32,656 bases of DNA from a virus (IMGVR_UViG_3300030107_006671:1-32656); one strand, 5' to 3'; shown: positions 4,405 to 31,947, numbered from the stretch's first letter. Notes: generated by a model from the letters alone, not told the origin. Program-made: numbers and translations.

Positions 4405-4809
4405 TTAAGTAAAGCTCTTATTTAGCTGTAAAACTATGCTGTAGCTATCGCCGCTAGTGTGTCCTACCGTGGTAAACAAAAGATCACCTGTTTTACCGCT
4501 TCCCGAGTTATTTGTTAAACCACCAAAAGTAGAAAAATCACTGTCTCCACTTTGGTTTTCTCCTAACTCTAGGCAAATAACATTGGAAGTAGCATCCCAC
4601 AGCATTTGCACTCGCATACCTATGCACTGCCACCAGATACGCTCAATGGCTACGCCCGTACATGTTTGGTTATACGAGCTAGTTTGTAAAGCACTTACGT
4701 CTACTTTAGCTACTGCACTTTCTCCAGAACCGTCAGAAACATTTGTAAACTTCATTACTGCTGTTCTGTCGCCATCCTGAATAGTTTGACTTGTAACGGC
4801 ATCAGCCAT
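4405..4809 (-). CDS. Conserved virion-type protein, 134 aa
   Basis: The 134-residue protein begins MADAVTSQTIQDGDRTAVMKFTNVSDGSGESAVAKVDVSAL and continues with beta-rich sequence (CTGVAIERIWWQCIGMRVQMLWDATSNVICLELGENQSGD, DLLFTTVGHTSGDSYSIVLQLNKSF). I know this pattern as a conserved hypothetical found close to the major capsid gene in marine phages. Its size, Ser/Thr/Gly content and lack of charged helices fit a decoration or outer virion protein, which is inference. AGGGGG lies 5-6 nt before ATG 4809. It lies just after the 182-aa surface-type gene. Confidence 0.78.
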   Translation of the reverse strand: MADAVTSQTIQDGDRTAVMKFTNVSDGSGESAVAKVDVSALQTSSYNQTCTGVAIERIWWQCIGMRVQMLWDATSNVICLELGENQSGDSDFSTFGGLTNNSGSGKTGDLLFTTVGHTSGDSYSIVLQLNKSFT

Positions 4810-4819
4810 ATTGACCCCC

Positions 4820-5368: not shown

Positions 5369-5394
5369 TTATTTTCTCCTGTCTTGGCAAGTGT

Positions 5395-5413
5395 CAACCA
5401 CACAGTGTGGTTG
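5395..5413. repeat. Short inverted repeat in leader of 4820..5368
   Basis: Perfect 8-bp arms CAACCACA / TGTGGTTG with a 3-base spacer lie between the capsid terminator-like hairpin and the ribosome site of the downstream gene. On the transcript this could form a small hairpin that trims or protects the 5' end of the downstream message. Confidence 0.5.
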
Positions 5414-5435
5414 TCAGGGAGTTAACACTTTACCC

Positions 5436-5467
5436 AAAAATAAAGGGAGACACAAGCCTCCCTTTAT
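5436..5467 (-). terminator. Intrinsic terminator after the major capsid gene
   Basis: A perfect 10-bp stem ATAAAGGGAG/CTCCCTTTAT with an 8-nt loop is followed on the minus strand by TTTTT. It begins 20 bp after the capsid stop codon. Because more late genes follow in the same direction, it probably acts as a partial terminator or a 3' stabiliser that raises capsid message over downstream messages. Confidence 0.7.
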
Positions 5468-5486
5468 CGCGTTTTTAAAAAACGGG

Positions 5487-6395
5487 TTATGCCCCTGGAG
5501 ATCCAAACACACAACGTGGGTCTGAAACACCAAAGCTGTATCGCTCGCGAGCTTTATAACGAACGTTTCCAGTGTCAAAATCGCCTTCCATAGAAGTCTT
5601 AATAGCGGCACGTTCAAAATGTTTAAAGCCGTTTGGAGCGTCTGTTTTAATGAAAAAAGCATCGGTATCCGTTAGGAAGTGGTTAACCACATACCCATCG
5701 GGCAACATACCCATGTTTCGCACAGCATTGATATCGTTATCCGATGTTCCTGTTCTTAGGGTTGAAGCCATCAATCTTTCAGCCACAAACTGTAGAGCAG
5801 AAGGGATAATGAGTTTCCTGCCTTGCAAAGCAATTTTCAATCCACGCTCGTCGATAAATGCGGCAATATCTATAAGAGATTGCTCCAAGGAAGTTTCATT
5901 CAAATCAGCTGATACAGTCAGCTCATTTTTGAAATTTCCCCCGCCCACTGTTGGGTGGTCAGTAGCACAAAGCTCTTTTCCATCACCAAAAGTGAAGCCA
6001 CTATCAAAAGCGTTGTTCAAAACAGCCGCCGCTTTCACCTGTTTGGTGTTAGCCATTGAGCGAGCTAACGCACGAGTATAACGACTAGAAAGACGGTCGT
6101 AAAGGTTATCCTCCACGGCTTCTTCGGTAATCGCAAAAGCTAGTGCAATAGTCTCGTGTGTGTAACGAGCGGTGTAGGCTTCGTTAGCTGTGTCGTAACT
6201 AACAGCTGATCCCTCACCCTTTACAGGTGCTTGACCAAAGCCCGATAACATAACTTCCTCTTCAAACGCACGGTCTGAAGCCTCAGTTTCATAAATTTCG
6301 GCATGCTCATTGTCATACCTGTCGTACTCCATTCCGAACAGAGCGTTAAGTCCCGGCTCAAGTTCTTTGAGGAGTTGACCACGTGATATAGCCAT
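5487..6395 (-). CDS. Major capsid protein (Mu F-like HK97-fold family)
   Basis: This is a 302-residue protein of normal length for the family. It begins MAISRGQLLKELEPGLNALFGMEYDRYDNEHAEIYETEASDRAFEEEVMLSGFG. The middle carries TARYTHETIALAFAITEEAVEDNLYDRLSSRYTRALARSMANTKQVKAAAVLNNAF and GKELCATDHPTVGGGNFKNEL. The C-terminal part is IKTSMEGDFDTGNVRYKARERYSFGVSDPR. This layout is that of the Mu gpF-like major head subunits of marine phages. AAGGAG lies 8-9 nt before the ATG, a strong ribosome site that fits high expression. It follows the scaffold and a decoration-type gene, as in other phages, and is followed at once by a strong hairpin. No protease is encoded nearby. Confidence 0.92.
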   Translation of the reverse strand: MAISRGQLLKELEPGLNALFGMEYDRYDNEHAEIYETEASDRAFEEEVMLSGFGQAPVKGEGSAVSYDTANEAYTARYTHETIALAFAITEEAVEDNLYDRLSSRYTRALARSMANTKQVKAAAVLNNAFDSGFTFGDGKELCATDHPTVGGGNFKNELTVSADLNETSLEQSLIDIAAFIDERGLKIALQGRKLIIPSALQFVAERLMASTLRTGTSDNDINAVRNMGMLPDGYVVNHFLTDTDAFFIKTDAPNGFKHFERAAIKTSMEGDFDTGNVRYKARERYSFGVSDPRCVFGSPGA

Positions 6396-15849: not shown

Positions 15850-15882
15850 AAAAAAAAGCGGCGGCTATACTAGCCCGCCGCC
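15850..15882 (-). terminator. Terminator after the 15899..16492 gene (hairpin family GC subtype)
   Basis: On the minus strand a stem GCGGCGG-(G bulge)-CTA / TAGCCGCCGC with loop GTA is followed by eight T. It starts 16 bp after the stop codon. The hairpin differs by a single base from the one at 20435-20459, so it belongs to the repeated hairpin set of the 18-23 kb gene array. Confidence 0.85.
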
Positions 15883-15898
15883 AAAGGGTATTACTTGC

Positions 15899-16492
15899 TT
15901 ACTGGGTTGCTGGTGTGCCCACTGTAATTGTTACTAGTGGGGTAGCTACGCCTTTACTTTTATAGCTACTTTTACCAGCTAGTGCCATAGCTAGCACGCC
16001 GTTGTACTTTTGCTGTACGCCGTACCGTTTAACAAATGCCAGTATATTACCGTAGGCGCGGCTAACTGTTTTATAGCACAAGTTGCCATTAGCCAATGTG
16101 GTTGGTACGCCGTGTATTATTGCGCTAAGTATAGCTTGGCGTTGCCCCATTTGTACGGTTTTACCGTGTAGGGTTGCGTGTACCGTATTACTATGTGGGT
16201 ACGTAACGCTGTAGGTTTTTTGCCCTGCTGTTACCTTGTTAGCCCCAAAGCTACCTAATACCGTACCGGCATTAGTAATTTGCAAGTTGCCTACTATTGG
16301 GTTAACCGTTACATGGTTACCGTTGTTGGCACCGTTATTGGTAAATGTGGCGTGCATTGCTACAGCGTTAGCTGTTGCCCATGCCCAACCGTTAGCTGGG
16401 TTACTACCAGTAACCCAGTTATGCCCGTAGGCTACCGGCGGTGTTGCCTTGCCGGTTTTTACTGCTGGTGCTGCTTTTTTAGGTTTTAACAT
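15899..16492 (-). CDS. Unrecognised protein, distant paralog of 22452..22922
   Basis: The 197-residue protein has a basic, Ala/Pro-rich start (MLKPKKAAPAVKTGKATPPVAYGHNW) and an unusual middle, very rich in Asn, Ala, Thr and Gly (NAVAMHATFTNNGANNGNHVTVNPIVGNLQITNAGTVLG). The C-terminal third (118-191) resembles the C-terminal part of the 22452..22922 product: GQRQAILSAIIHGV against GVRDTLQNWILNGV, and GKSSYKSKGVATPLVTITV against GGYSRSSKYWLTPYVKLVV. It stands alone between the repeat locus and terL, with its own candidate promoter and terminator, as a cargo gene would. The leader TTATAAAGGGTAACAAA resembles the TTATAGGGGCAACAAA leader of the array. Function is unknown. Confidence 0.75.
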   Translation of the reverse strand: MLKPKKAAPAVKTGKATPPVAYGHNWVTGSNPANGWAWATANAVAMHATFTNNGANNGNHVTVNPIVGNLQITNAGTVLGSFGANKVTAGQKTYSVTYPHSNTVHATLHGKTVQMGQRQAILSAIIHGVPTTLANGNLCYKTVSRAYGNILAFVKRYGVQQKYNGVLAMALAGKSSYKSKGVATPLVTITVGTPATQ

Positions 16493-16545
16493 TTTGTTAC
16501 CCTTTATAATGTTAGTGGCGGCGTTATTGCCTAACCACAGCTACT

Positions 16546-16573
16546 AGTATACACACATAAAAACATAAAGCAA
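16546..16573 (-). promoter_or_regulatory. Candidate promoter of 15899..16492
   Basis: On the minus strand TTGCTT (16573-16568), a 16-bp spacer and TATACT (16551-16546) form a sigma70-like promoter about 55 bp before the start codon. Hexamer matches are three or four of six for -35 and five of six for -10. The position upstream of a gene with its own terminator supports it. Confidence 0.45.
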
Positions 16574-16605
16574 GTACTTTTTAATACTTTTTTAAAAATA
16601 AATGT

Positions 16606-16622
16606 TGCCTATTTTTTAGGCA
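16606..16622. terminator. Small hairpin, possible terminator of the VRR-NUC transcript
   Basis: TGCCTA / TAGGCA with a 5-base loop is followed on the minus strand by ACATTTATTTTTAAAAAAG. The stem is short (6 bp) and the T-run begins a few bases late, so termination would be weak. Confidence 0.4.
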
Positions 16623-16702
16623 GTGCCAAGAATTGTGAACCTTACCCACCACCATATAACCACTATAAAACAAGAGTTTATAAAGAGCCAGTGCTAAATG
16701 TT

Positions 16703-16742
16703 CATGGGGACATGGGGACATGGGGACATGGGGACATGGGGA
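16703..16742. repeat. Five tandem copies of the 8-bp unit CATGGGGA
   Basis: The exact 8-bp unit CATGGGGA is repeated five times without gaps. The same CATGGGGA recurs singly in the 22-bp repeat (16889-16942). Because 8 is not a multiple of three, open frames across it are chance repeats of a 24-bp period and are not genes. It is the first of three direct repeat families in this non-coding locus. Confidence 0.9.
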
Positions 16743-16746
16743 CTGT

Positions 16747-16817
16747 GAATCCTCATGAATCTTCACGAATCTTTGTGAATCTGCACGAGTGCGAATCCTC
16801 ACGAATCCTTACGAATC
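16747..16817. repeat. Phased 10-bp GAATC repeats (GANTC cluster)
   Basis: GAATC starts at 16747, 16757, 16767, 16777, 16793, 16803 and 16813, with a decayed copy (GAGTG) at 16787. The unit is about GAATCYTCAY and its 10-bp period places each site on one face of the helix. After the decayed copy the phase shifts by 6 bp. GAATC is a GANTC site, the target of CcrM-type adenine methylases of Alphaproteobacteria. Seven sites in 71 bp is far above chance (about one per 256 bp). Confidence 0.9.
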
Positions 16818-16888
16818 ATCATCTTTCATTATCCATAGTCCGCTCACAAGGAGTCATGGGTCATGGTCATGGGTTCACTCTTCTTGAC

Positions 16889-16942
16889 TCATGGGGAGTC
16901 CTTCTCATTATCATGGGGAGTCCTTCTCATTATCATGGGGAC
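16889..16942. repeat. 22-bp direct repeat, about 2.4 copies
   Basis: The unit starting TCATGGGGAGTCCTTCTCAT has a 22-bp period with starts at 16889, 16911 and 16933 (last copy partial). Its core shares CATGGGGA with the 8-bp array. The last copy overlaps the 3' end of the VRR-NUC gene, so that gene's final codons are repeat-derived. Confidence 0.85.
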
Positions 16943-17352
16943 GAAGAAAGAAGATGACTGACGAGCCCCTCCCAGTCGTACGGAGCCGACGTACTCCAGT
17001 CAGGGGTCAGGGGGTCATCTTTCGTCCTCTTTCGTACGAGGTCCATGGCTCTTTTCCCATCAAATATGTTTAGAGTGGAAGAAGAAGGATGAGCAACCAA
17101 GTTCCAAACAATTCCTTTTTGATTAGCGTACTGGGTCTGCCACGCTACTTGGTGCGGACTTAAGTTTATGGACCTTAATGACTTTAGCCTGTGTACCTTT
17201 AACTCTAGCCAAAAACAACAACCATTCTTTATGCCGTGCAAGTCAGGTATTCCAGGTGTAGCCCAAGACTCTAGTCTTGTCCACAGTATTCCCATGTGTT
17301 TGGTGTTGTCGCGTAGCTGTTGCCAGAGTTTGCTTTCAGGTTTAGTTGCCAT
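16933..17352 (-). CDS. VRR-NUC domain nuclease
   Basis: The 139-residue protein has the VRR-NUC (PD-(D/E)xK) motifs: ESKLWQQLRDN near the N-terminus (E6), TPGIPDLHGIKNGCCFWLELKV (D37, E50, K52) and SPHQVAWQ (Q68). Stand-alone VRR-NUC proteins are structure-specific endonucleases, of Holliday junction or flap type, in phages and their hosts. It follows terS directly and precedes the repeat locus, so it may resolve branched DNA before packaging. The last residues (LVSHLLSSSP) run into the 22-bp repeat. The C-terminal region (about 95-130; RAMDLVRKRTKDDPLTPDWS) is not part of the core fold. Confidence 0.85.
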   Translation of the reverse strand: MATKPESKLWQQLRDNTKHMGILWTRLESWATPGIPDLHGIKNGCCFWLELKVHRLKSLRSINLSPHQVAWQTQYANQKGIVWNLVAHPSSSTLNIFDGKRAMDLVRKRTKDDPLTPDWSTSAPYDWEGLVSHLLSSSP

Positions 17353-17395
17353 GAAAACAACCTACAACAAAGTTAATTCTGTGGCAAGTGTTTGT

Positions 17396-17941
17396 TTATC
17401 TTACTTTTTCAGGCTCAACCATTTCAGCATCAACAACATTGCCATTCGCTACAAGGGCTAGGGCAGGGTATTCCTCCTGAAGTTTTTTAATTTCACGCAT
17501 AACTTCGTCACGGTTCATCTGGTCTATTTTGCCGTGCAGTATTTCCTTACGGTCTATGTAAAGCCCTGCGGCTTGCCCTCGTGATTTTTCGGCGGCAACG
17601 GCGGCGGCGTAGTTTCCGTTTTGCATAGCCCCGTCACGTATTTCAGCCAGCTTTTTCACATGCCCCTCAAAAGTTACCTCGTACTTGTGGGCTAACTCCA
17701 TGCGTAGCTCCCTAACCCTACTCACAACGTGGGGGTAGTTTTTCCCATTTAACAGTTGGGACGCCATAGCATGTGCCGACTTTTTAGAATAACCCGCCCG
17801 CACAGCCGCCTCGGTTTGGCTTATGTCCTCGCAGACATATAACCGTGCAAATTGCTCTTGCATCGGGGTTATGTTTTTTTCAGTACGTGGGTTTGCTACT
17901 ACGTCAAGTGTGGGTTTGTGTGTCGCTTTTGCTAATGGCAT
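17396..17941 (-). CDS. terS: Terminase small subunit
   Basis: I choose MPLAKATHK (ATG 17941) with TAGGAG 5 nt upstream, giving 181 residues. The N-terminal DNA-binding part is TPMQEQFARLYVCEDISQTEAAVRAGYSKKSAHAMASQLLNGKNYPHVVSRVRELR, the usual terminase small subunit (terminase_2) helix-turn-helix with AGYSxxSAxxxxxxLL. It is followed by helical oligomerisation sequence (EVTFEGHVKKLAEIRDGAMQNGNYAAAVAAEKSRGQAAGLYIDRKE). It recognises the packaging site and loads terL. Separation from terL by 1.8 kb with a repeat-rich region between is unusual. Confidence 0.88.
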   Translation of the reverse strand: MPLAKATHKPTLDVVANPRTEKNITPMQEQFARLYVCEDISQTEAAVRAGYSKKSAHAMASQLLNGKNYPHVVSRVRELRMELAHKYEVTFEGHVKKLAEIRDGAMQNGNYAAAVAAEKSRGQAAGLYIDRKEILHGKIDQMNRDEVMREIKKLQEEYPALALVANGNVVDAEMVEPEKVR

Positions 17942-18183
17942 AGTTACTCCTATGGTTTTACTAACGACTAGTTTACTAAGTAGTACCAAATTCAAAAAGA
18001 AATTTTTTTATTTTTTTCCAAAAAAGTTGCATGGATCCTCAGATCTAACTGATCAGATATTGAACATGAACACTGAATATTATACCTAACTCCTTGGTTA
18101 TAGGGGTATAGCAAGATAACGTATATTATAGAATGTTAAAAAACAAATTTACACTATTTCGCATTTACCCCTATTATAGAAAA
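17942..18183 (-). promoter_or_regulatory. AT-rich gap before terS with three TATAAT boxes
   Basis: No convincing gene lies in these 242 bp. On the minus strand perfect TATAAT hexamers end at 18079, 18125 and 18173, spaced 46 and 48 bp. None has a clean -35 at 17 bp. Three GATC palindromes (GGATCC, AGATCT, TGATCA) lie within 18033-18055, and A/T runs follow (17993-18025). A frame of 18 codons at 18032 is too short to call. The region is the likely start of a terS/VRR-NUC transcript. Confidence 0.4.
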
Positions 18184-18537
18184 CTAGCTATTTATGGCTC
18201 CTATTTGGTAACGCCTAGGGTATGCTTCCCTTTCTCTGCAATCGTCATAATACCCTTCATAACCAGTTGGCTGGTTCCATGGATTTTTATACGCCAGTTC
18301 GCGTTTTATTGCTGTTTTCCACTGTCGGGTGCTGTAACCTTTCAGCTTATAAAAATGCCGCAATTCATTTACCACGTCTTTAATAGCCCGCCGCACCTTT
18401 CTGCCGTCGGCATAAAATTCGTTAGTTGTTAGTGACCAGCGAAGTATTTGGTTTTCTAAACATGTTGCAACCAGTTGTTCTAGCTTGTTGCCTCGTTGCC
18501 TCTTAAATGTGTTAAAGTCATAAGCTTGGTATTTCAT
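18184..18537 (-). CDS. Unrecognised array gene, 117 aa
   Basis: The 117-residue protein is basic and aromatic, with helical content (NTFKRQRGNKLEQLVATCLENQILRWSLTT; RKVRRAIKDVVNELRHFYKLKGYSTRQWKTAIKRELAYK) and a Tyr/Arg-rich end (GYEGYYDDCREREAYPRRY). I do not recognise a family. It is the last gene of the array in transcription order. Its leader AATCTTATAGGGGGCAACA overlaps the stop codon of the preceding gene, so this junction keeps the leader but lacks the hairpin found at others. An early host-takeover or anti-defence function is possible from context only. Confidence 0.72.
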   Translation of the reverse strand: MKYQAYDFNTFKRQRGNKLEQLVATCLENQILRWSLTTNEFYADGRKVRRAIKDVVNELRHFYKLKGYSTRQWKTAIKRELAYKNPWNQPTGYEGYYDDCREREAYPRRYQIGAINS

Positions 18538-18541
18538 AATT

Positions 18542-18560
18542 TGTTGCCCCCTATAAGATT
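18542..18560 (-). promoter_or_regulatory. Array leader copy 1 (AATCTTATAGGGGGCAACA)
   Basis: This is the repeated leader found before five array genes. AGGGGG serves as ribosome site and the AATCTTAT part lies upstream of what translation alone needs. Here it overlaps the TAA of the preceding gene. Confidence 0.7.
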
Positions 18561-18999
18561 AAACCAGTGCCGACACTGGTTGTTGTGAAAAGTACGTTGC
18601 CGAGTAAAACCCTTCGCCTGGATACCACTGCACTTTGTAGATTGCCCCTAGCGTGTTGTAGGGGTAGGACTTACCCCTAAACCGCAACAGTTTTTCCGGT
18701 ATGCGCCCCGACCACTTAATTACGTTGGAGTTGCCCCGTATTTTTTCCATTGTTGTGTCCCACTGCAACCATGCTATGTCGGCTAGGTGTTTTTCGGTGG
18801 TGGCACATTGGTCGGCTACCACGTTGCCGCTTTCGTATGTGTATACTTTCCCTAATAAGCCCGTCCTGTTAAAGCTATCGGTTGCTAAATCGTTATACCA
18901 GCCTTTTATGAGCTTTAGTTGGTTGGGTTCTAAACTGGCAAAGTTACTGTTTTGTAAGAGTTGCTTTGCGCTGTTGTGTTCTTGCCAAACTGTTTCCAT
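18559..18999 (-). CDS. Unrecognised array gene, 146 aa, TYF tail
   Basis: The 146-residue protein has helical N-terminal sequence (QEHNSAKQLLQNSNFASLEPNQLKLIKGWYNDLATD), then VYTYESGNVVADQCATTEKHLADIAWLQWDTTMEKIRGNSNVIKW. It ends with KSYPYNTLGAIYKVQWYPGEGFYSATYFSQQPVSALV. The last part resembles the C-termini of 19087..19614, 20017..20415, 20474..20872 and 20982..21473 (aromatic strand, then TYF near the end). YESGNVV also occurs in the 23900..24382 protein. No known domain. A leader precedes it and a terminator hairpin (19033-19057) lies upstream. Confidence 0.75.
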   Translation of the reverse strand: METVWQEHNSAKQLLQNSNFASLEPNQLKLIKGWYNDLATDSFNRTGLLGKVYTYESGNVVADQCATTEKHLADIAWLQWDTTMEKIRGNSNVIKWSGRIPEKLLRFRGKSYPYNTLGAIYKVQWYPGEGFYSATYFSQQPVSALV

Positions 19000-19003
19000 A
19001 ATG

Positions 19004-19021
19004 TGTTGCCCCTATAAGATT
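19004..19021 (-). promoter_or_regulatory. Array leader copy 2
   Basis: An exact AATCTTATAGGGGCAACA lies 5 nt before the start of 18559..18999 and follows a 25-nt hairpin and a T-rich stretch. Confidence 0.7.
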
Positions 19022-19032
19022 TAAAATAAGTA

Positions 19033-19057
19033 CCCTACCCATATAGTATAGGTAGGG
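19033..19057 (-). terminator. 25-nt array hairpin, downstream of 19087..19614
   Basis: An 11-bp stem starting CCCTACC-T-ATA with loop CTA, one T-G pair, is followed by TACTTATTTT on the minus strand. Compared with the copy at 22408-22432, inner pair C-G has become T-A with pairing kept. A TTAAGT box stands immediately before the stem. Confidence 0.8.
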
Positions 19058-19086
19058 ACTTAACAAAGAACCACAACTAATTGTTC

Positions 19087-19614
19087 TTATTGAGCCTTTA
19101 CAAAGTACGTGCCCAGTGCCGACATTAGTGGCTCGTTTACGTATTGTGCAAAGCCGTGAATTTGCACCCCCTTGTAGTTCCGCACTGCAATGCGGTGTGT
19201 GCCTTCGGTATACTCGTGGGGGTTGCCATCCCAGTCGGTTGAGCCTTTTGCCCATATGGTGGCAAGGGTCTGTTCGGTAACGGTAACCCACCCGTCCTTG
19301 CCGGTAAGCATGGCGGTGTGGTGTTCCTGCACGGCGGGGGGTGGTTCGCCACCGGTTAGCATGTACTCTTGGTCGTGTACTAGCCACTTTTGTGTATCAA
19401 GGTCGGTGCAGTGTTTAGCTAGGTAATCGCTAAAAAACGGCACCATTTCTAAATTAAGTTGGTGGTTGTCGGTAATGGTGTTAAGCACCTCTTGTAAGGT
19501 GGTTTCTTGCCAAGCAGGGTTGTTAAATTCTGCTAGTGTTGGTTCAGTAGCCACTACGCCGTTTCCAGTGTAAATGCCTGTTTTCCAAGGCGGTGGTATT
19601 TGCGGTGTTTTCAT
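19087..19614 (-). CDS. Unrecognised array gene, 175 aa, TYFV tail
   Basis: I use ATG 19614 (MKTPQIPPPWKTG), which follows the standard leader; an upstream ATG at 19659 lies before the leader. The 175 residues are acidic and include the helical PAWQETTLQEVLNTITDNHQLNLEMVPFFSDYLAKH and a beta-rich C-terminal half (MLTGKDGWVTVTEQTLATIWAKGSTDW). The end, HRIAVRNYKGVQIHGFAQYVNEPLMSALGTYFVKAQ, matches 20982..21473 (HRI-GYKG...TYFVEA). I know no family. It has its own leader and is followed by a hairpin terminator. Confidence 0.75.
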   Translation of the reverse strand: MKTPQIPPPWKTGIYTGNGVVATEPTLAEFNNPAWQETTLQEVLNTITDNHQLNLEMVPFFSDYLAKHCTDLDTQKWLVHDQEYMLTGGEPPPAVQEHHTAMLTGKDGWVTVTEQTLATIWAKGSTDWDGNPHEYTEGTHRIAVRNYKGVQIHGFAQYVNEPLMSALGTYFVKAQ

Positions 19615-19618
19615 AGTT

Positions 19619-19637
19619 TGTTGCCCCCTATAAGATT
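19619..19637 (-). promoter_or_regulatory. Array leader copy 3
   Basis: AATCTTATAGGGGGCAACA lies 4 nt before ATG 19614, and decides that start over the ATG at 19659. Confidence 0.7.
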
Positions 19638-19645
19638 TTAGTTTG

Positions 19646-19682
19646 AAAAAACCCCCCACCCACTTTTGCGCGAGCGGGGGTT
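19646..19682 (-). terminator. Terminator after 19690..19923
   Basis: On the minus strand AACCCCC and GGGGGTT pair over a loop of about 20 bases that includes GCGCAAAAG, followed by TTTT. It starts a few bases after the stop codon at 19690. It is not of the 25-nt family, although it occupies the same place in the unit. Confidence 0.65.
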
Positions 19683-19689
19683 AGAGCCC

Positions 19690-19923
19690 TTACCCCCTTG
19701 GGCAGTCTGCCGTGCTAATGGTGTCCATGCCGGCGTCGTAGGCTTTGTAGTAAAGGTTTTCCGGTGTTAACTCCCCGTTAGCCACCTGTACCAGTAACTC
19801 TGTTGCATATTCAAGTTGCGCGGCGGGACTTAGCCAGTAACCCTGTAGCAACTCGGTTATGTGCCCCGTGGTTATACCGATACTGCCTGAAACTTTTGCT
19901 GAACTTTGTGTATTTTTAGCCAT
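19690..19923 (-). CDS. Unrecognised array gene, 77 aa
   Basis: The 77-residue acidic protein (MAKNTQSSAKVSGSIGITTGHITELLQGYWLSPAAQLEYATELLVQVANGELTPENLYYKAYDAGMDTISTADCPRG) looks helical in its middle and C-terminal parts. There are no motifs I know. Its leader (AATATAAGGGCTAAAAATC before the ATG) is a diverged relative of the array leader. It is bounded by a terminator downstream and by a 25-nt hairpin upstream (19972-19996), so it forms a separate unit. Confidence 0.7.
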   Translation of the reverse strand: MAKNTQSSAKVSGSIGITTGHITELLQGYWLSPAAQLEYATELLVQVANGELTPENLYYKAYDAGMDTISTADCPRG

Positions 19924-19971
19924 GATTTTTAGCCCTTATATTGAGTTTATAAAATTGAAGCAGGGTTTTTG

Positions 19972-19996
19972 CCCCACCTATAAAGTATAGGCGGGG
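19972..19996 (-). repeat. 25-nt array hairpin, downstream of 20017..20415
   Basis: An 11-bp stem CCCCGCCTATA / TATAGGTGGGG with loop CTT. Compared with the CCCTACC form it has changes on both arms (T-A to C-G, A-T to G-T) that keep pairing. No T-run follows (CAAAAACCC), so it is not a typical terminator, yet length and position are kept. Confidence 0.7.
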
Positions 19997-20016
19997 ACTT
20001 ACCCGTGAGCCACTGT

Positions 20017-20415
20017 TTATTGCTCTACGTACTCTTTGGCAACAAAGTACGTGGCATTGGTTTCGCCGTCCCCCTGCCTGTTCGTGTGCCACAGTGCAAG
20101 ATACGTTTGCCCGTCGCTAACCCATGTTTGCACCACGTCGTAACCACTGCCGTCGGGGTAGGGCTTGGTTTTCTGGGTGGTAGGTTTGGGTAGTTGCTCG
20201 GTAAACTGCCAAAACTCGTCGGGAACATCCCCGTTGGGGTATCTTGCGGCATGTTCGTAACAGTAAAACTCACGGTTACCCATGGCTCTTTGCAAAAGTT
20301 TTTTAGGACACAAAGCCCCATACTCCGTGTAATAGGCTACCCAGTCGTTGCCTGTTTTTAAACCGTTGCTTTCAGCAAAATACTTTTTGACGCTATTGTT
20401 AAGATTTTTTTGCAT
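20017..20415 (-). CDS. Array gene, tandem paralog A (132 aa)
   Basis: The 132-residue protein is a clear tandem paralog of 20474..20872. Shared blocks are GALCPKKLL, MGNREFYCYE, FWQFTEQLPKPTT, VVQTW and the identical end TYFVAKEYVEQ. It is mixed alpha/beta, with Cys in LCPKK and YCYE. The N-terminal 25 residues differ from the paralog. AAGGAAATTAATT precedes the ATG, shared with the paralog but unlike the AATCTTATAGGGG leader. I know no family. Early expression and interaction with a host factor are guesses from context. Confidence 0.78.
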   Translation of the reverse strand: MQKNLNNSVKKYFAESNGLKTGNDWVAYYTEYGALCPKKLLQRAMGNREFYCYEHAARYPNGDVPDEFWQFTEQLPKPTTQKTKPYPDGSGYDVVQTWVSDGQTYLALWHTNRQGDGETNATYFVAKEYVEQ

Positions 20416-20434
20416 AATTAATTTCCTTGTTAAA

Positions 20435-20459
20435 GCGGCGGCTGTACTAGCCCGCCGCC
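20435..20459 (-). repeat. 25-nt array hairpin, GC subtype, downstream of 20474..20872
   Basis: GCGGCGG-G-CTA / CAGCCGCCGC with loop GTA differs from the 15858-15882 hairpin by one base, which breaks the innermost pair. The T-run is short (TTTAAC), so termination would be weaker here. Confidence 0.75.
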
Positions 20460-20473
20460 AAATGAGCCACTGT

Positions 20474-20872
20474 TTATTGTTCTACGTACTCTTTGGCAAC
20501 AAAGTACGTTGGGGCAGGACCACCCCACTGCCCGTTCGTGTACCACACTACAAGGTGCGGTTGCTCGGTGTTGCCCCATGTTTGTACCACCTCGTAACTG
20601 CCGTCACCGTAGGGCTTGGCTTGTTGCTCGGTGGTGGGCTTTGGCAGTTGCTCGGTAAACTCCCAAAACCCGTCAGGAGCTTCACCCGTGCTACCCTCAA
20701 AACAGTAAAACTCGCGGTTGCCCATGGTTTCGTGTAAAAGTGCTTTAGGACACAGCGCACCGTGTTCACTAAAATATTTTACCCATTCGCCGCCGGTGTT
20801 TAAACCGGTGCTGTCCGTACCGTTTTTGATTTGTTGCTTAAGGCTGTCACTAAGCCAGTAAGTTTCTTGCAT
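20474..20872 (-). CDS. Array gene, tandem paralog B (132 aa)
   Basis: The 132-residue protein is the partner of 20017..20415, with the same length and the blocks GALCPKALL, MGNREFYCFE, FWEFTEQLPKPTT, VVQTW and TYFVAKEYVEQ. The N-terminus (MQETYWLSDSLKQQIKNGTDS) differs. The conserved NREFYC and FTEQLPKP blocks with variable loops suggest a common fold that has diverged on its surface, as in proteins that bind changing host targets. DNA identity extends past the stop into CAATAAACAGTGGCTC. No known family. Confidence 0.78.
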   Translation of the reverse strand: MQETYWLSDSLKQQIKNGTDSTGLNTGGEWVKYFSEHGALCPKALLHETMGNREFYCFEGSTGEAPDGFWEFTEQLPKPTTEQQAKPYGDGSYEVVQTWGNTEQPHLVVWYTNGQWGGPAPTYFVAKEYVEQ

Positions 20873-20909
20873 AATTAATTTCCTTTTAAAAAGTGATTTA
20901 TAAAAAATA

Positions 20910-20934
20910 CCCTACCCACACACTGTAGGTAGGG
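20910..20934 (-). terminator. 25-nt array hairpin, downstream of 20982..21473
   Basis: An 11-bp stem starting CCCTACCTACA with loop GTG, identical in sequence to the copy at 22408-22432, is followed by TATTTTTTATAAATC. AAGTAAGT stands just before the stem. Confidence 0.8.
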
Positions 20935-20981
20935 ACTTACTTAGGAACCAGCCCTGTTTACTCTTTGTGCTCGGTGGCGAT

Positions 20982-21473
20982 TTAGTGCTTTGCCTCCACA
21001 AAATAGGTTTCAGCCATTGTGCAACCCCAAATTTCGTAAGCACTTTTGAACATAAGCACCCGTCTACCCTTGTAGCCAATGCGATGCTCGGAAACACTAA
21101 ACCTTGCCCCCTTGGGAAATTTATAGCCGTCTACCCACGTGTTTATTAGTTTAAACTTATCGGGGTCTAATAAAGCGGGTTGGTAGTCGTTACTAGGCAT
21201 GGGGTGTAGTAACTCCGTTAAGTAGTGAAAATGGGCTGTGTTTTGGTCGGTTACCCCAACGCCAAACTCGGGGTCAAGTACATGCCACCCATTGTTATTG
21301 TTGTCATAAGCGTACCGCATCAAGTATGTGGCGTAAGCAAGGTCACAGGCACCATGGTGTGGGTCTTCTTTTTCCATTTCTTTGGCTGAGTTTAGCCAAT
21401 ATTTTATGTGCTCGTTGCTAGGTTGCAATCTGGTAAAACAGTAGTCAATGTATTGCTGTTTGTGTGCGTTCAT
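20982..21473 (-). CDS. Unrecognised array gene, 163 aa, TYFV tail
   Basis: The 163-residue protein has a helical N-terminal half (HKQQYIDYCFTRLQPSNEHIKYWLNSAKEMEKEDPHHGACDLAYATYLMRYAYDNNNN). The C-terminal part is FSVSEHRIGYKGRRVLMFKSAYEIWGCTMAETYFVEAKH, which resembles the end of 19087..19614 (HRI, YKG, TYFV). Several His and Cys are scattered, without a clear metal site. The standard leader lies before the ATG. No family recognised. Confidence 0.75.
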   Translation of the reverse strand: MNAHKQQYIDYCFTRLQPSNEHIKYWLNSAKEMEKEDPHHGACDLAYATYLMRYAYDNNNNGWHVLDPEFGVGVTDQNTAHFHYLTELLHPMPSNDYQPALLDPDKFKLINTWVDGYKFPKGARFSVSEHRIGYKGRRVLMFKSAYEIWGCTMAETYFVEAKH

Positions 21474-21477
21474 AGTT

Positions 21478-21495
21478 TGTTGCCCCTATAAGATT
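21478..21495 (-). promoter_or_regulatory. Array leader copy 4
   Basis: An exact AATCTTATAGGGGCAACA lies 4 nt before ATG 21473, preceded by a T-run and a 25-nt hairpin. Confidence 0.7.
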
Positions 21496-21504
21496 TAAAA
21501 AATG

Positions 21505-21529
21505 CCCTACCCACCTATTGTAGGTAGGG
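21505..21529 (-). terminator. 25-nt array hairpin, downstream of 21559..21732
   Basis: A stem starting CCCTACCTAC with a 5-base loop (the innermost pair is lost) is followed by CATTTTTTAAATC on the minus strand. Confidence 0.78.
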
Positions 21530-21558
21530 ACTTGTAAAAGAGCCATAACTAATTGTTC

Positions 21559-21732
21559 TTATTGACTATGTTTGTTACCCCTTAGTTTTTCTAGCTCTCT
21601 AGCGGATTGCCCTCTGCGGCTTACCGCTTTGGCAATCTTTTGCTCGTTGGTTAGCAAATTGTGGGCAGTCTGCCTAGCTGTAGCCTGTTCCCGTTTTAAC
21701 TCACGGTATGCTGTTATTTTCATATGTTTCAT
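21559..21732 (-). CDS. Small basic helical protein, 57 aa
   Basis: A 57-codon frame starts at ATG 21732 with an excellent ribosome site (AAGGAGG, 5 nt spacing). It begins MKHMKITAYRELKREQATAR and continues as a charged helix (QTAHNLLTNEQKIAKAVSRR, then GQSARELEKLRGNKHSQ). It is rich in Arg, Lys and Gln and may bind nucleic acid or fold as a coiled coil. Its 3' end (CAATAAGAACAATTAGTT) is almost identical to that of 19087..19614 and is followed by an array hairpin, which supports it as a true member of the array. Confidence 0.75.
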   Translation of the reverse strand: MKHMKITAYRELKREQATARQTAHNLLTNEQKIAKAVSRRGQSARELEKLRGNKHSQ

Positions 21733-21759
21733 TTGCACCTCCTTTTTGTTGTGTGGTTT

Positions 21760-21948
21760 TTACTTTTCTTGTAAGTAATGCTTTAACAAGTGACCAAGCA
21801 GTTGGGGTCTTGTTACTTTCATGCCTAACTCTTGGCTTACTAAGTCTTGTGTTTCTAAAAAGTCTTGTATTAGTATTGGGTCTTTAGTAATAAACCCGAC
21901 TGTTGTTGGTTGTTTCGGTCGTTTTGGTCGTTTGTTTGTTTTAGTCAT
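21760..21948 (-). CDS. Small basic protein, possible ribbon-helix-helix-like
   Basis: I choose MTKTNKRPK (ATG 21948) because AAGGAG lies 9 nt upstream, giving 62 residues. The basic arm KTNKRPKRPKQPTT leads to VGFITKDPILIQDFLETQDLVSQELGMKVTRPQLLGHLLKHYLQEK. One strand and two helices with xVTRPQLLGHLLKHYL at the end recall small DNA-binding RHH proteins, but the match is weak. It sits 27 bp before the 57-aa gene and probably shares its transcript, so the pair may be a small regulatory unit. Confidence 0.68.
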   Translation of the reverse strand: MTKTNKRPKRPKQPTTVGFITKDPILIQDFLETQDLVSQELGMKVTRPQLLGHLLKHYLQEK

Positions 21949-21980
21949 AATTTGCATCTCCTTTGTAAGCGTGGTGCTTG

Positions 21981-22373
21981 TCATGGGTTGTATGCCCATT
22001 CGTTGGCTTTTGCCAGTGTGCCCTCAAACAGTAGTTTACAGGGGTATTTTTCGCCATCGCTTTTGCCAAAAATCAACACGCAAAAATGGGGGGTAATCAC
22101 GTAGTGGTACTCGGTATCGGCGTGGTCCGTGTACGATGGGGTAATTTCCATAAACCCGTGTTTTTTGTTGGCTCGCATAAAAGCATGGGCTAGTGTTTTG
22201 GGATGGATGGAGTACCGTAAGTTATTGCTAACTATTTCGCCGTGGCAAACCAAATCCACTGCGGTGTTGGTTAGCCATCTTACCGCCCCCTCGGGGTAGC
22301 CGTCGTGGTGTTTGTACACCGTAGCCGAAGGGTCTCCGTTTCTAGTAAATTGGTACGTTGCTCGTGTTGCCAT
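21981..22373 (-). CDS. Conserved 'MATRATYQF' hypothetical protein, 130 aa
   Basis: The 130-residue protein starts MATRATYQFTRNGDPSATVYKHHDGYPEGAVRWL. I recall this pattern (MATRxxYxF...TVYxHxDGYPEGA) from conserved proteins of unknown function in bacteria and phages. The rest includes HPKTLAHAFMRANKKHGFMEITPSYTDHADTEYHYVITPHFCVLIFGKSDGEKYPCKLLFEGTLAKANEW. Function is unknown. It has a variant of the array leader (TTATAGGGAGACACC) and is the only array member here with a wide family that I know. Confidence 0.78.
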   Translation of the reverse strand: MATRATYQFTRNGDPSATVYKHHDGYPEGAVRWLTNTAVDLVCHGEIVSNNLRYSIHPKTLAHAFMRANKKHGFMEITPSYTDHADTEYHYVITPHFCVLIFGKSDGEKYPCKLLFEGTLAKANEWAYNP

Positions 22374-22376
22374 AAT

Positions 22377-22395
22377 GGTGTCTCCCTATAAGATT
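22377..22395 (-). promoter_or_regulatory. Array leader copy 5, variant AATCTTATAGGGAGACACC
   Basis: This copy reads TTATAGGGAGA, which resembles the start of single-subunit phage RNA polymerase promoters of the T7 type (CTATAGGGAGA). Only the downstream half is similar. It lies 3 nt before ATG 22373. Confidence 0.6.
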
Positions 22396-22407
22396 TATAA
22401 AAAAATG

Positions 22408-22432
22408 CCCTACCCACACACTGTAGGTAGGG
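22408..22432 (-). terminator. 25-nt array hairpin, downstream of 22452..22922
   Basis: An 11-bp stem starting CCCTACCTACA with loop GTG and one T-G pair is followed by CATTTTTTTATAAATC. The box CACTGGCTCTTTGTTAAGT runs from the stop codon to the stem. Confidence 0.85.
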
Positions 22433-22451
22433 ACTTAACAAAGAGCCAGTG

Positions 22452-22922
22452 TTATTTGCTCTGTGGTTTCACAACCAGTTTTACGTAGGGCGTCAACCAA
22501 TACTTGCTAGACCGGCTGTACCCGCCGTGCATAAGAGCCCAAAGGCATACCGGCTTGCGTCGGCTTAACCCAAGGGTGCGACACTTGGTAAGTATGGTTT
22601 TTAAAGTGCGGTCGCCGTCTACGCCATTAAGTATCCAGTTTTGTAGGGTATCGCGCACACCACCACTTTTCCCGCCGTAACCAAAGGGCACGGGCTTGTC
22701 GCTTTTAAAGTCCACGTTTGGCAGGGGCTCTACAAGTATGTTAGCTTCGTTACCTCCAGCGTTTGCTTTTACAAAAGCATCTATCTGGTCGTAGGTAATT
22801 TCCTTGCCGTTTACAATTAATTCCTTGGCAGTGGTTTTCGTGCCGGTTACCACTGGTGCTGGAACCCTGACCTTAGTGGTGCTAACCACTTTAGCCGATG
22901 GTGCTTTAACAGATTTAACCAT
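22452..22922 (-). CDS. Unrecognised array gene, distant paralog of 15899..16492
   Basis: The 156-residue protein starts with a Lys/Val/Pro/Thr-rich arm (about 1-35; KAPSAKVVSTTKVRVPAPVVTGTK). Then come AKELIVNGKEITYDQIDAFVKAN and a compact C-terminal domain (80-156): FGYGGKSGGVRDTLQNWILNGVDGDRTLKTILTKCRTLGLSRRKPVCLWALMHGGYSRSSKYWLTPYVKLVV. The last domain resembles that of 15899..16492, and both have a basic N-terminal arm. The compact domain with GxSRRK and SRSSK could bind nucleic acid. AAAGGATC precedes the ATG, part of the other leader type (ATAGAAAGGA). Function is unknown. Confidence 0.75.
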   Translation of the reverse strand: MVKSVKAPSAKVVSTTKVRVPAPVVTGTKTTAKELIVNGKEITYDQIDAFVKANAGGNEANILVEPLPNVDFKSDKPVPFGYGGKSGGVRDTLQNWILNGVDGDRTLKTILTKCRTLGLSRRKPVCLWALMHGGYSRSSKYWLTPYVKLVVKPQSK

Positions 22923-28386: not shown

Positions 28387-28540
28387 GGTATACCTCTACG
28401 TACGCATGACAGTTTGGGCAAGATAAATTAGTAACTATAGAATAGTTATAATCGCTTTCGCCCTGTTCTAGTTTGTAGGGGTACTCATAGTCGTGGTCGC
28501 CACCCCAAGTAAGTTCTGTATTACAAGACCAACAATTCAT
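28364..28540 (-). CDS. Tiny zinc-ribbon protein, 58 aa
   Basis: A 58-codon frame starts at ATG 28540, sharing a base with the stop codon of polA (TAATG). It begins MNCWSCNTELTWGGDHDYEY and has a second Cys pair near LSCPNCHAYVEVYHG. CxxC at residues 3-6 and 41-44 make a four-Cys zinc ribbon. I recall a marine phage family with MNCWxCxTELxWGGDHD...VTNLSCPxCxAxVEV, so this is a real gene. It overlaps the HD gene by 23 bp. Function is unknown. Confidence 0.82.
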   Translation of the reverse strand: MNCWSCNTELTWGGDHDYEYPYKLEQGESDYNYSIVTNLSCPNCHAYVEVYHGSKDVE

Positions 28541-30456
28541 TACGTTAACATCTCCGAGTGATTATGTTTTAACCCCCTTGTCCACGGTTTGTCGGAAAGG
28601 GTCTGCTTTGCCTCACCCCAGTTTGGTCCAAGTTCGGCATCCACCACACTGGGCACTTCTAACTTTACGCAATCCTGCATAATTTCTACAATCTTTTTAC
28701 ACTGTGCTTCGTTTTCTACCGAAATGTCAAGCTCATCATGCACTTGTATCATGGGTAGTATGCCCTCTTCGGCAAGGGTGGCAAGAGCGGCTTTAGTTTG
28801 GTCGGCGGCACTGCCCTGTATTAACTTGTTTAGAGCTTTGTAGGTAAAGGCTCGTTTAATGGCGGCTCCGTGTTCGGCATAGGCATCCTTATAAGACAAC
28901 GGTTTCCATACCCCGTACTTACTAGGCTCCCATTTGTCAAACCTACACCTTCTGCCTAACACCGTGCGGATAACCCCCTTTTGGCTCGCCCTGTTAACGC
29001 TGTAGTCGCTTAGTTCACGCACAAAGGGTACTTTTTCATGGTAGGTGGCAAATAGGTCTTGGGCTTCTTCGTATTCAAGCCCCAAACTGGCGGCTAGTTT
29101 CTTACTGCCCATGCCGTAGAACAACCCGAGGTTAATGTCCTTTGCCTGTTTACGAGGCACCCCCACAATGTCTGCCGCCATTTGGTGAAAGTCCGTGCGG
29201 GGGTCTTGGTTGTATTGTTGTGCAAAGTCAACCGCTCCTTTAAAACCCATCAACTTAGCGTAATGCACCACTATACGGGGCTCTTGGCTACTGTAGTCAA
29301 ACGCACCCCACAAACAATCTTTTTCGGGTAGAAACAAACTACGTATCATGGGACCAATTTCCCCGTGCCGTGCTGGAATTTGCTGTAGGTTTGGATTACT
29401 GTAACTAAACCGACCCGTTACCGTGCCCCCGTTGTCGCTACGCAGGGGGTGTAGCTCGGCGTGTATGCGTCCGTTGTTTTGGTGCTTGAGTATAGTGTCT
29501 ACAAACGTGGTGCGAGCTTTATTAAACTCGCGGGCTTGCACTATCATTTGTGGCATGGGGTGGGGGTGATGGGCTAAAAACCCCTTGGTAAACGACGGGG
29601 CTTGGGTTTTTTCGGTTTTACTGTAGGGTATGCTTAGTGCATCAAAGGCTTTAGCTACGCTTTCTGCCGCCCATATTTCAACCGCCACGCCGGTGTCTTT
29701 GGTTACTTGGTCAAGTAGTGCTTTTTCTTTTTGCTCAAGTTCTGTTTTTATACGCTCGGCTTTTTGTAGGTCTACCCTTACGCCCTGTTGCCGCATGGGG
29801 ATAATAGCATTAAGCACCCGTAACTCGAGTTCAAAAATATCCTTTATTTCTTCCTTAACAACAAGAGCTTTAAAATGTTCCCATAATCTAAGGGTAAGGT
29901 GGGCATCTTGTTCGGCGTACTGCCCCACGTGCTGTGCAGGGAGTTTATACATTTCGCTTTTAGCGTCAACACCAAAGGTTGCGGCGGCTTCGCGTAAGCC
30001 CTGCTCCGACTTACGGTCTTGCAAGTAGTCTCTGCCTAGGGCATTTAGCGAATACGAAAAGCGGTTCTCGTCCAACAGGGGAGCCACCACCATGGTGTCT
30101 ATAATTTTGCCTTTTATTTGTACGCCTTCGGTTAGTAGCCACCCTACGTCGTACGGGGCATTATGAAACACATAATTCCGCTGTGGGGTAACCACCTCCT
30201 GTAACCACTGTAAGGTTTTTTTAGGGTCAAAGTTTGGTCCTAACTCGTGCCGTATAGGGAAGTACCAACTACGCTCCTTTACGGCTACGGCTATGCCTAT
30301 AATGTGCCCATCTTTGCGAGCCCACCCCGAACCCATTGTGGTGAGGTTAGGGTCTTTGGTTTCTAGGTCTATAGCTATTTCTTGTGCCGTGCTGAGGTCG
30401 GGGTAGTGGTCGGGCATTACCCATTCGGTGGGGGGGCTAAATAGTGGAATTTGCAT
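28540..30456 (-). CDS. polA: DNA polymerase family A with 3'-5' exonuclease, Leu in motif B
   Basis: The 638-residue protein has an exonuclease domain with D30 and E32 (AIDLETKD), N99/D103 (FHNAPYDVGWL) and Y180/D184 (QYAEQDAHLT). The polymerase domain has motif A D387 (AFDYSSQEPR), motif B K439 to Y447 (KQAKDINLGLFYG) and motif C H573-D574-E575 (QVHDELD). There is no 5'-3' exonuclease domain, as usual in T7-like phages. Residue L443 aligns with E. coli Phe762; Leu there is found in many marine phage polymerases and is linked in the literature to slower or temperate-like replication. No thioredoxin-binding loop is evident. It should be the replicative enzyme. Confidence 0.95.
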   Translation of the reverse strand: MQIPLFSPPTEWVMPDHYPDLSTAQEIAIDLETKDPNLTTMGSGWARKDGHIIGIAVAVKERSWYFPIRHELGPNFDPKKTLQWLQEVVTPQRNYVFHNAPYDVGWLLTEGVQIKGKIIDTMVVAPLLDENRFSYSLNALGRDYLQDRKSEQGLREAAATFGVDAKSEMYKLPAQHVGQYAEQDAHLTLRLWEHFKALVVKEEIKDIFELELRVLNAIIPMRQQGVRVDLQKAERIKTELEQKEKALLDQVTKDTGVAVEIWAAESVAKAFDALSIPYSKTEKTQAPSFTKGFLAHHPHPMPQMIVQAREFNKARTTFVDTILKHQNNGRIHAELHPLRSDNGGTVTGRFSYSNPNLQQIPARHGEIGPMIRSLFLPEKDCLWGAFDYSSQEPRIVVHYAKLMGFKGAVDFAQQYNQDPRTDFHQMAADIVGVPRKQAKDINLGLFYGMGSKKLAASLGLEYEEAQDLFATYHEKVPFVRELSDYSVNRASQKGVIRTVLGRRCRFDKWEPSKYGVWKPLSYKDAYAEHGAAIKRAFTYKALNKLIQGSAADQTKAALATLAEEGILPMIQVHDELDISVENEAQCKKIVEIMQDCVKLEVPSVVDAELGPNWGEAKQTLSDKPWTRGLKHNHSEMLT

Positions 30457-30616: not shown

Positions 30617-30932
30617 AGCGGGGCGTTCCTTTTAACTCGGCTTCTACTAAGAATAAATACCTACGTAAGTCTTGTATGTCGTCTAATATACCCTCTGGTC
30701 TTTTATCCTGTTCAGCGGCTTTAAAAACATCAAAGTTTTTGGCACTTACTTGTGTTTCTAACCTATCCCATTTGCGGGCAAGCATCATAAAAGCACCCAC
30801 GCCGCCGCGTTTTTTCCAACTATCGCCGTAACTTTCTTCGGCTTTTGCTAACGCTCGTATGTCTTCGGTAGCTATTTCTTTTGCCGTTTTTAGTATGGGC
30901 GATAAGTGTTGCTCACCAGCATTAATTTCCAT
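30576..30932 (-). CDS. Conserved phage helical protein, weak MazG/Nmad-like similarity
   Basis: The 118-residue protein has LSPILKTAKEIATEDIRALAKAEESYGDSWKKRGGVGAFMMLARKWDRLETQVSAKNFDVFKAAEQDKRPEGILDDIQDLRRYLFLVEAEL. I know it as a conserved marine phage protein. The pattern 'YGDSW...G...ML.RKWDRLE...GI.DDI.DLRRYL.L.E' has the spacing of all-alpha MazG/DUF1599 (Nmad1) type proteins linked to nucleotide modification, but the usual ExxE motif is not clear (E96 and others are possible). It overlaps thymidylate synthase by 11 bp. The call is tentative; a role in nucleotide metabolism is likely from position. Confidence 0.75.
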   Translation of the reverse strand: MEINAGEQHLSPILKTAKEIATEDIRALAKAEESYGDSWKKRGGVGAFMMLARKWDRLETQVSAKNFDVFKAAEQDKRPEGILDDIQDLRRYLFLVEAELKGTPRYARTTKPIEKQKP

Positions 30933-31947
30933 AGTTTTTTGCTCTCCTTTGTAACCACTCTAAACAAGCCTTACGCCATGCTCGGTCTTCTATGCTTTCG
31001 GCGTATAGGTAAGCTTTTTCAAAATCACGCAACTTCCAGTGCCGCCAACTCAACCGCATGGGCGTTGCCGTATTGCCAAGATACGTGTTGTCGTAACCGG
31101 TACGCTGTTCGTCTTCAAACCACGCCAACAGTTCTTCATCAAAGCTGGTGTGCGAATCCACCAACGGTGGCGGTGTGTACTGCAACCCGTTATCAGCTAG
31201 TGTTAGGTACGGCTCGTAATCTGCGGGCATGTCGCTAAGTTTATTTAATACATCCTTGTAGGCATGAAGGTTATTACTAAACTGATAATACAGCCCCACG
31301 CCTAGTTCTAGTCTTGCCGCCATGTACTCCAACAAAACCGACATATGCACGGCGTTGGCTCCGTAGGCTCCCCAAATTAAATCATTACTGCGGTTTACCA
31401 CCGTCATGTTAAGGTTACCGTTACGCTCGCTAAAAAATATCTGTGTGTTGCAGGGGTAGTCTTTACCCGTGTTATCCGCAACTAAGTCGTGGTTGGCATC
31501 CCACATACTAACCACGGTGCGGCGGTCGTTTGGGTACTTTTGTAATCGTAGTAGGGCGGCTTCCAATTGGTCTTTTCCAAACCAGTTTCGCCACCGGTAA
31601 CCATACGCCCCATGAAAAGTTGTGCCATCGTCGCTGTAAGTATTCATACGCCCGTTGAACTGGCTAATCCACTGTACGTCGTTTCTACCGGCTAACATCC
31701 AAAGGGCTTCCATTAAGTGAAAATAAGGGTTAGCGTCGCGTTGGGGGTAAAACAGCACCCGTTCGCGGCTATGGGTGTAAGTAGTAGCCACTGGGGACGT
31801 AAACTCCAATGCCTTACCGTTACGTGTTTCTATTTCTCTACCTTCTTGTTCCAAGGCGTTTTTAGCCAAAAACAGGGCTTCGCTTACATTACGGACAGTA
31901 AAAGACTGCACACCAAACGCTTCAGACGCTTTAAAACCGTACAGCAT
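30922..31947 (-). CDS. Thymidylate synthase / dCMP hydroxymethylase family enzyme
   Basis: The 341-residue protein has the ThyA fold motifs: catalytic C166 in KDYPCNTQIFF, phosphate-binding R186-S187 (NRSNDLIWGAYGANAVHMS) and the C-terminal QFSNNLHAY (folate and nucleotide pocket). In standard ThyA the RSxD block is followed by GLPFNIA with an Asn that reads uracil. Here it is GAYGANAVHMS with a one-residue shift, so dUMP or dCMP preference cannot be read by eye. Such variants are common in phages. It could make dTMP or a hydroxymethyl nucleotide. A GT-B glycosyltransferase-like gene lies just upstream, which would fit glycosylated hydroxymethyl bases. Confidence 0.88.
   Translation of the reverse strand: MLYGFKASEAFGVQSFTVRNVSEALFLAKNALEQEGREIETRNGKALEFTSPVATTYTHSRERVLFYPQRDANPYFHLMEALWMLAGRNDVQWISQFNGRMNTYSDDGTTFHGAYGYRWRNWFGKDQLEAALLRLQKYPNDRRTVVSMWDANHDLVADNTGKDYPCNTQIFFSERNGNLNMTVVNRSNDLIWGAYGANAVHMSVLLEYMAARLELGVGLYYQFSNNLHAYKDVLNKLSDMPADYEPYLTLADNGLQYTPPPLVDSHTSFDEELLAWFEDEQRTGYDNTYLGNTATPMRLSWRHWKLRDFEKAYLYAESIEDRAWRKACLEWLQRRAKNYGN

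Follow-up and report, generated by a model that had tools for sequence, protein, structure and literature searches.

How a phage may swap its small accessory genes without breaking the operons in which they lie is an open question, and it is raised anew by an array of 11 short genes in a marine phage record from IMG/VR (IMGVR_UViG_3300030107_006671; a partial genome of 32,656 nt, all of which is referred to below as the window), where one hairpin-bearing block recurs between the genes. The reading favoured here, which we hold to be probable, is that this block represents a copied intrinsic-terminator-like element sitting where genes end in a hypervariable accessory array and doubling as a short stretch of homology for gene duplication, gain and loss. 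Should this be true, a hairpin that both ends a transcript and marks an exchange point would let single genes move together with a working 3' end.

A preliminary description of this DNA had listed seven hairpins of almost the same form, each 25 nt long with a stem of about 11 bp and a 3-base loop. A hairpin is indeed present at all seven positions; the hairpins belong, however, to two families of five and two members, and the uniform geometry does not extend to copy B (Table 1) or to the GCGGCGG hairpins at 15858 and 20435, which form a family of their own (7 bp, a bulged G, then 2-3 bp), differ from each other by one base and had no match in 100 shuffles. The larger family, R1 (22408, 21505, 20910, 19033 and 19972), carries CCCTACC...GGTAGGG in four copies and CCCCGCC...GGTGGGG in one, and a covariance model built from these five recovered exactly the same five as full copies when the window was searched (E from 1e-14 to 5e-18), with a common block of about 70 nt, which bears out the claim that the whole intergenic block is repeated. 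All five fall in gaps, although gaps make up just 14% of the array region. The punctuation of the array is less regular than first described, as two gaps (after g21981 and after g21760) have no hairpin, the one at 19653 is unrelated, and the interval between 21505 and 22408 spans three genes. Copies are lettered by gap along the minus strand, F being the gap with the 19653 hairpin and H the one following g18559. Just upstream of the large terminase gene (terL), where the 15858 hairpin lies in the window, a T-tailed hairpin of another sequence is found in 6 of 10 terL relatives.

Table 1. Coordinates of the hairpin copies, boxes and genes discussed in the text (all on the minus strand).
Feature	Position	Strand	Remarks
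Copy A	22391..22462	-	g22452/g21981 gap; 5' mini-stem, hairpin 22408-22432, U-run; R1 89.6 bits; free energy (dG) -17.0 kcal/mol; 6 U in next 8 nt
Copy B	21491..21559	-	g21559/g20982 gap; hairpin 21505-21529 with 10 bp and 5-nt loop, U-run; R1 82.7 bits
Copy C	20894..20964	-	g20982/g20474 gap; hairpin 20910-20934, 25-mer identical to that of copy A, U-run; R1 85.7 bits
Copy D	20435..20483	-	g20474/g20017 gap; array 5' box (R1 remnant) and GCGGCGG hairpin 20435-20459; 3 U only
Copy E	19956..20026	-	g20017/g19690 gap; CCCCGCC hairpin 19972-19996; 0 U in next 8 nt; compensatory pair 4; R1 76.5 bits
Copy G	19017..19087	-	g19087/g18559 gap; hairpin 19033-19057; imperfect U-run; compensatory pair 10; R1 91.7 bits
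Unrelated terminator-like hairpin (F)	19653..19680	-	g19690/g19087 gap; CCCCCGC...GGGGG and TTTTTT; dG -21.5 kcal/mol; 6 U
GCGGCGG terminator	15858..15882	-	g15899/terL gap, outside the array; 8 U
5' box remnant without hairpin	16629..16704	-	g16933/g15899 gap; R1 18.2 bits, E 0.04; repeat family D4
8-bp perfect hairpin	18562..18581	-	encodes last residues of g18559; no U-run; function doubtful
Start-associated box TAAATCTTATAGGGGCAACAAACT	21474..21497	-	holds ribosome site; variants before g21981, g19087, g18559 and g18184; 24-nt comparison
TYF(V) motif genes	18559-18999, 19087-19614, 20017-20415, 20474-20872, 20982-21473	-	C-terminal motif
Array of 11 short genes, g22452 to g18184	18184..22922	-	open reading frames; directly upstream of small terminase gene
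DNA polymerase	28540-30456	-	upstream of array
Thymidylate synthase	30922-31947	-	upstream of array

Read along the transcribed strand, the block consists of a mini-stem, AAGT, a 10-11-bp hairpin, one unpaired base, and ATTT leading into the U-run. The mini-stem (4-5 bp; GAGC or GAAC, an 11-nt loop, then GCTC or GTTC) lies across the stop codon or shortly after it, and both stems are predicted by RNAalifold, along with a pairing of AAGT with ATTT that lengthens the base of the hairpin. The shared upstream box, given in the preliminary description as GGCTC...TTAAGT, is real and finds its explanation here: its AAGT pairs with the ATTT of the tail, and its GGCTC with the GAGC or GAAC at or right after the stop codon. 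The compensatory stem changes noted there also withstood analysis, with double changes at two hairpin pairs (U-A to C-G at pair 4, C-G to U-A at pair 10) supporting the view that the element is kept for its structure; the mini-stem, which shows one compensatory change, is less sure because A faces C there in copies B and D.

That the structure is one of RNA on the gene-coding strand is indicated by the stem energies, which in every R1-family copy are -15 to -17 kcal/mol as minus-strand RNA versus -11 to -13.5 as plus-strand RNA, since a G-U pair turns into A-C on the plus strand; all of the hairpins act in the sense of the coding minus strand. Uridines occupy 5-7 of the 8 nt after the stem in A, B, C, F and G (a strong run in the first four, an imperfect one in G) and all 8 at 15858, so that the arrangement of an intrinsic terminator, i.e., a G+C-rich hairpin with an immediate U-run on the coding strand, is found in A, B, C, F and 15858, to a moderate degree in G, and in neither D nor E. 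Judging from these sequence features, the copies with U-runs would presumably terminate or attenuate transcription.

The history of the copies seems to have been one of exchange. A and C have the same 25-nt hairpin even though B intervenes, and are also closest over the hairpin segment (97%); in the 5' box, however, the nearest pairs are B with G (83%) and D with E (84%), and in the start box B with G, C with D, and F with H. The closest copies (A and C, B and G) are non-adjacent and the nearest partner changes with the segment compared, while copy D is an array 5' box fused to the type of hairpin found before terL. The start box itself (AATCTTATAGGGGCAACA, ribosome site included) has close variants ahead of five genes, and an 18-mer of it occurs exactly twice where 0.02 occurrences would be expected. 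Such mosaic copies would be best explained by exchange or conversion between them.

As for the genes, none but g22452 and g21981 has a confident PHROGs or Pfam match or a confident relative. To regard them all as unrelated would nevertheless be partly wrong, in view of the tandem paralogs g20474 and g20017 (20017..20872, minus strand), which are 61% identical and have the start box and 3' end in common whereas their hairpins differ, and of five proteins with TYF placed 7-12 residues from the C-terminus, a motif otherwise absent from the 9,753 residues examined. Four of these five genes have the DNA ACGTACTTT in common, and most of g19087 aligns, though weakly, with g20474 (none of 200 shuffles did as well), whereas profile comparison of the array proteins was not significant; given the motif and the alignment on one side and the profiles on the other, remote paralogy among the array proteins is likely, though not proven. 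The ends of g18559 and g19087 both contain the 12-mer TGTCGGCACTGG, which in g18559 lies within the 8-bp hairpin encoding the C-terminus. An AlphaFold model of g20474 had a mean predicted local distance difference test (pLDDT) score of 52 and was set aside.

The product of g21981 (21981-22373, minus strand) belongs to a widespread family of small phage proteins starting with MATRATY (56 loci, 30-61% identity, some matches being short), and a repeated hairpin of any kind was found in none of the loci of these 56 relatives. The gene g22452 (22452-22922) is 58-68% identical (29% in one case) to a protein encoded between g16933 and terL in seven relatives; that slot is taken in the window by the orphan g15899 (15899-16492), and g22452 heads the array instead. 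IMG/VR yielded no relatives of g20982, g20474/g20017 or g18184, annotated phages gave no match to the array DNA or to g22452, and 12 records of terL relatives lacked the array genes, save for the displaced g22452 and a weak partial match to g21760 in one.

A gene coming or going at a comparable hairpin can be seen in distant relatives, the phages of the L061 clade, for which the notion of interchangeable one-gene cassettes put forward in the preliminary description holds. In these phages, short genes lying immediately upstream of terL are separated by a hairpin of the sequence GGGCCCGCTTCGGCGGGCCC, on the opposite strand to terL. A 79-aa gene lies between two of these hairpins in L061 and L180 and is absent from L064, L063 and their kin, whereas L179 and L183 have this gene and lack the next one. 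In L061, the two hairpins are within a 29-nt perfect direct repeat bounding the extra gene, and once one 295-nt unit is removed from L061, the remaining sequence gives a gap-free alignment of 258 bases with L064. The two differ by the indel of a single gene, whose breakpoints coincide exactly with the hairpin, L064 being the precise empty site; the pair is unusually clean, and makes the idea testable in natural populations and in the laboratory. By analogy, the array of the window may have changed by the same route.

The preliminary description had named beforehand, as a refuting outcome, the lack of covariance-model hits outside this genome, and the search in fact returned no repeated element among the sequences searched, from which near-identical genomes may be missing; R1 was likewise not found in the records of terL relatives that were searched. 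Hairpins of one sequence recurring at least three times per locus were seen only in the window, the L061/L063 group and L029 (among 176 loci, 2 Mb), the last of which holds, at 4565-5640, several T-run terminators of one GGGCGGCC stem type, possibly a third hairpin family. The exact stem pattern occurred in eight records of all IMG/VR, all from one unrelated locus family (L081-L088) where it forms a single terminator; these unrelated viruses have the same 11-bp stem between genes, G-U pair included, with a T-rich tail. The pattern of the block gave one match, in an unrelated sequence, which was judged to be due to chance, and the stem with its AAGT flank had no match in 84,980 bacterial and archaeal genomes.

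How, then, might such a block work? The strong RNA hairpin, mostly accompanied by a U-run, would probably act as a partly read-through intrinsic terminator or a 3'-end stabiliser, setting the expression of each gene apart from that of its neighbours, and the start box present at several genes may allow translation of the next gene to be reinitiated. Near-identical copies between differing genes would also offer short stretches of homology where a gene, along with its end, could be duplicated, swapped, gained or lost. Several observations weigh against this reading. Copy D has three U after the stem and copy E none; no sigma-70 promoter was found in the gaps, where hairpin end and start codon are separated by 19-48 nt (the best matches, 7-8 of 12 positions, were no better than those in shuffles), so that complete termination at every hairpin would leave the genes beyond it unexpressed, and partial read-through by the polymerase is inferred for this reason. 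Moreover, what speaks for cassettes was observed at a hairpin of different sequence, in phages whose terL is about 63% identical and whose array is oriented opposite to terL, and 21 of the 30 hairpin copies of the L061 clade have no U-run, which means that termination cannot be the sole role (among those read in detail, the copies with a U-run stand at the end of a gene run). A broader generalization can be offered only tentatively: each lineage of this phage group might evolve a short hairpin of its own, spread copies of it through the gaps of its accessory array and employ them as promoterless joints at which single genes are gained, lost and duplicated by homologous exchange, the cassettes being held by terminator-like RNA ends and not by a recombinase or promoter cassette, so that the sequence turns over while the architecture stays.

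Would a simpler history suffice, in which the array grew by duplicating a gene along with its own terminator, the genes diverged fast, and the hairpins were kept alike by selection and gene conversion with no role in exchange? The tandem paralogs, the TYF motif in five proteins and the weak alignment of most of g19087 with g20474 speak for such growth; yet the nearest copies are non-adjacent (A/C, B/G) with partners varying by segment, the paralogs themselves bear different hairpins, and genes bounded by hairpins have come or gone in the L061 clade, all of which makes this account rather unlikely. About as doubtful is the proposal that the hairpins protect or define the 3' ends of one long, cleaved transcript, in the manner of repetitive extragenic palindromes (REP), without terminating anything: it would accommodate copies D and E, the majority of L061-clade copies that are without U-runs and the promoterless gaps, while leaving unaccounted for the full U-runs at A, B, C, F and 15858 and the AAGT, which is kept in register and pairs with the first U. 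Read-through would be needed if a single promoter served the array, and an antitermination signal of the nut/boxA kind, with TGGCTCTTT ahead of the hairpin binding Nus factors or a phage protein, could supply it; GGCTCTTT, present in copies A and B and in the 16629 remnant, resembles the boxA core. Copies C, D and E, however, keep only GYTC, GCTCTTT is found in three of the seven boxes and is no rarer on the other strand, and GYTC is partly explained by its pairing with GARC, which renders this improbable.

The preliminary description had likened the array to integron attC palindromes, and palindromes repeated between single genes do invite the comparison, which nevertheless went unsupported: no recombinase, tyrosine recombinases included, was seen among the scanned genes of the window (a partial genome), the G-U pairs and U-runs indicate RNA, the elements are short, and ordinary homologous exchange within a 29-nt repeat would account for the L061-clade indel, so that site-specific recombination cassettes are very improbable. 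Hardly credible at all are N4-type hairpin promoters for a virion RNA polymerase, to which the 3-nt loop of stems placed ahead of genes might point. N4 promoter stems are much shorter than those seen here, the T-runs and the placement after stop codons suit terminators, the longest stop-free stretch in the near relatives is at most 1,110 codons, leaving no place for a giant virion polymerase, and the single-subunit RNA polymerase family (PF00940) had no match in the relatives in a search run without a positive control.

The rest of the window is coded almost wholly on the minus strand, with the small terminase, terL and portal genes following the array in this order, and its closest named phages by terminase DNA are the Pelagibacter phages HTVC027P and HTVC023P, DSL-LC04 and 023Pt_psg01 (about 63-65% identity). 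An Rfam Mu-gpT-DE RNA (RF03012) is matched at 5366-5419 on the minus strand (61.9 bits, E 3e-12); a conserved 302-aa gene (5487-6395; 76-92% identical in relatives) precedes it, and the gene at 4820-5368 follows closely. The 440-nt gap between g16933 and g15899 has tandem repeats at 16703-16941 (CATGGGGA x5.1, GAATCTTCAC x4.2, CGAATCCTCA x3 and a 22-mer x2.4), possibly an origin or a packaging signal.

Among known systems, ordinary intrinsic terminators share the G+C-rich hairpin and U-run past the stop codon, whereas here five copies of one sequence and its flanks lie within 3.5 kb, and the U-run has been lost from some of them. In the haloarchaeal virus HGTV-1, a gene-start motif combines a TATA-like box with an inverted repeat (PMC3950731), which resembles the window in recurring near many small genes but is upstream, promoter-linked and that of an archaeal virus. 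Cluster K mycobacteriophages have a 13-bp start-associated sequence (SAS), GGGATAGGAGCCC, near the start codon (PMC3203893), with about half of the SAS preceded by an extended form (ESAS) of 17-bp imperfect inverted-repeat arms and a 4-13 bp spacer (PMC3203893, PMC12699233). An inverted repeat and a start box at a subset of non-structural genes are common to both systems, and the SAS/ESAS repeat consensus varies by subcluster; the sequences, however, are unrelated (the start box of the window being AATCTTATAGGGGCAACA, not GGGATAGGAGCCC), and the window has arms of 10-11 bp, a loop of 3-5 nt, a U-run and a mini-stem at the stop codon. Nearer than any integron are the terminator-type cassettes of T4-type phages, the promoter early stem-loops (PeSLs; Arbiol 2010 and Comeau 2014, as recounted in PMC4503421 and PMC3950731), which are intergenic stem-loop terminators repeated, as here, between small, fast-changing genes; PeSLs have been tied to modular gene shuffling and have a TTGACA...TATAAT early promoter after the stem-loop. 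In phage RB49, taken as a control, TTGACA and TATAAT are clearly recognisable between a stem-loop and the gene after it, whereas the gaps of the window leave just 19-48 nt between hairpin and start, and their stems are near-identical between copies; being without the PeSL promoter, the elements described here are thus PeSL-like in part, and not members of that class.

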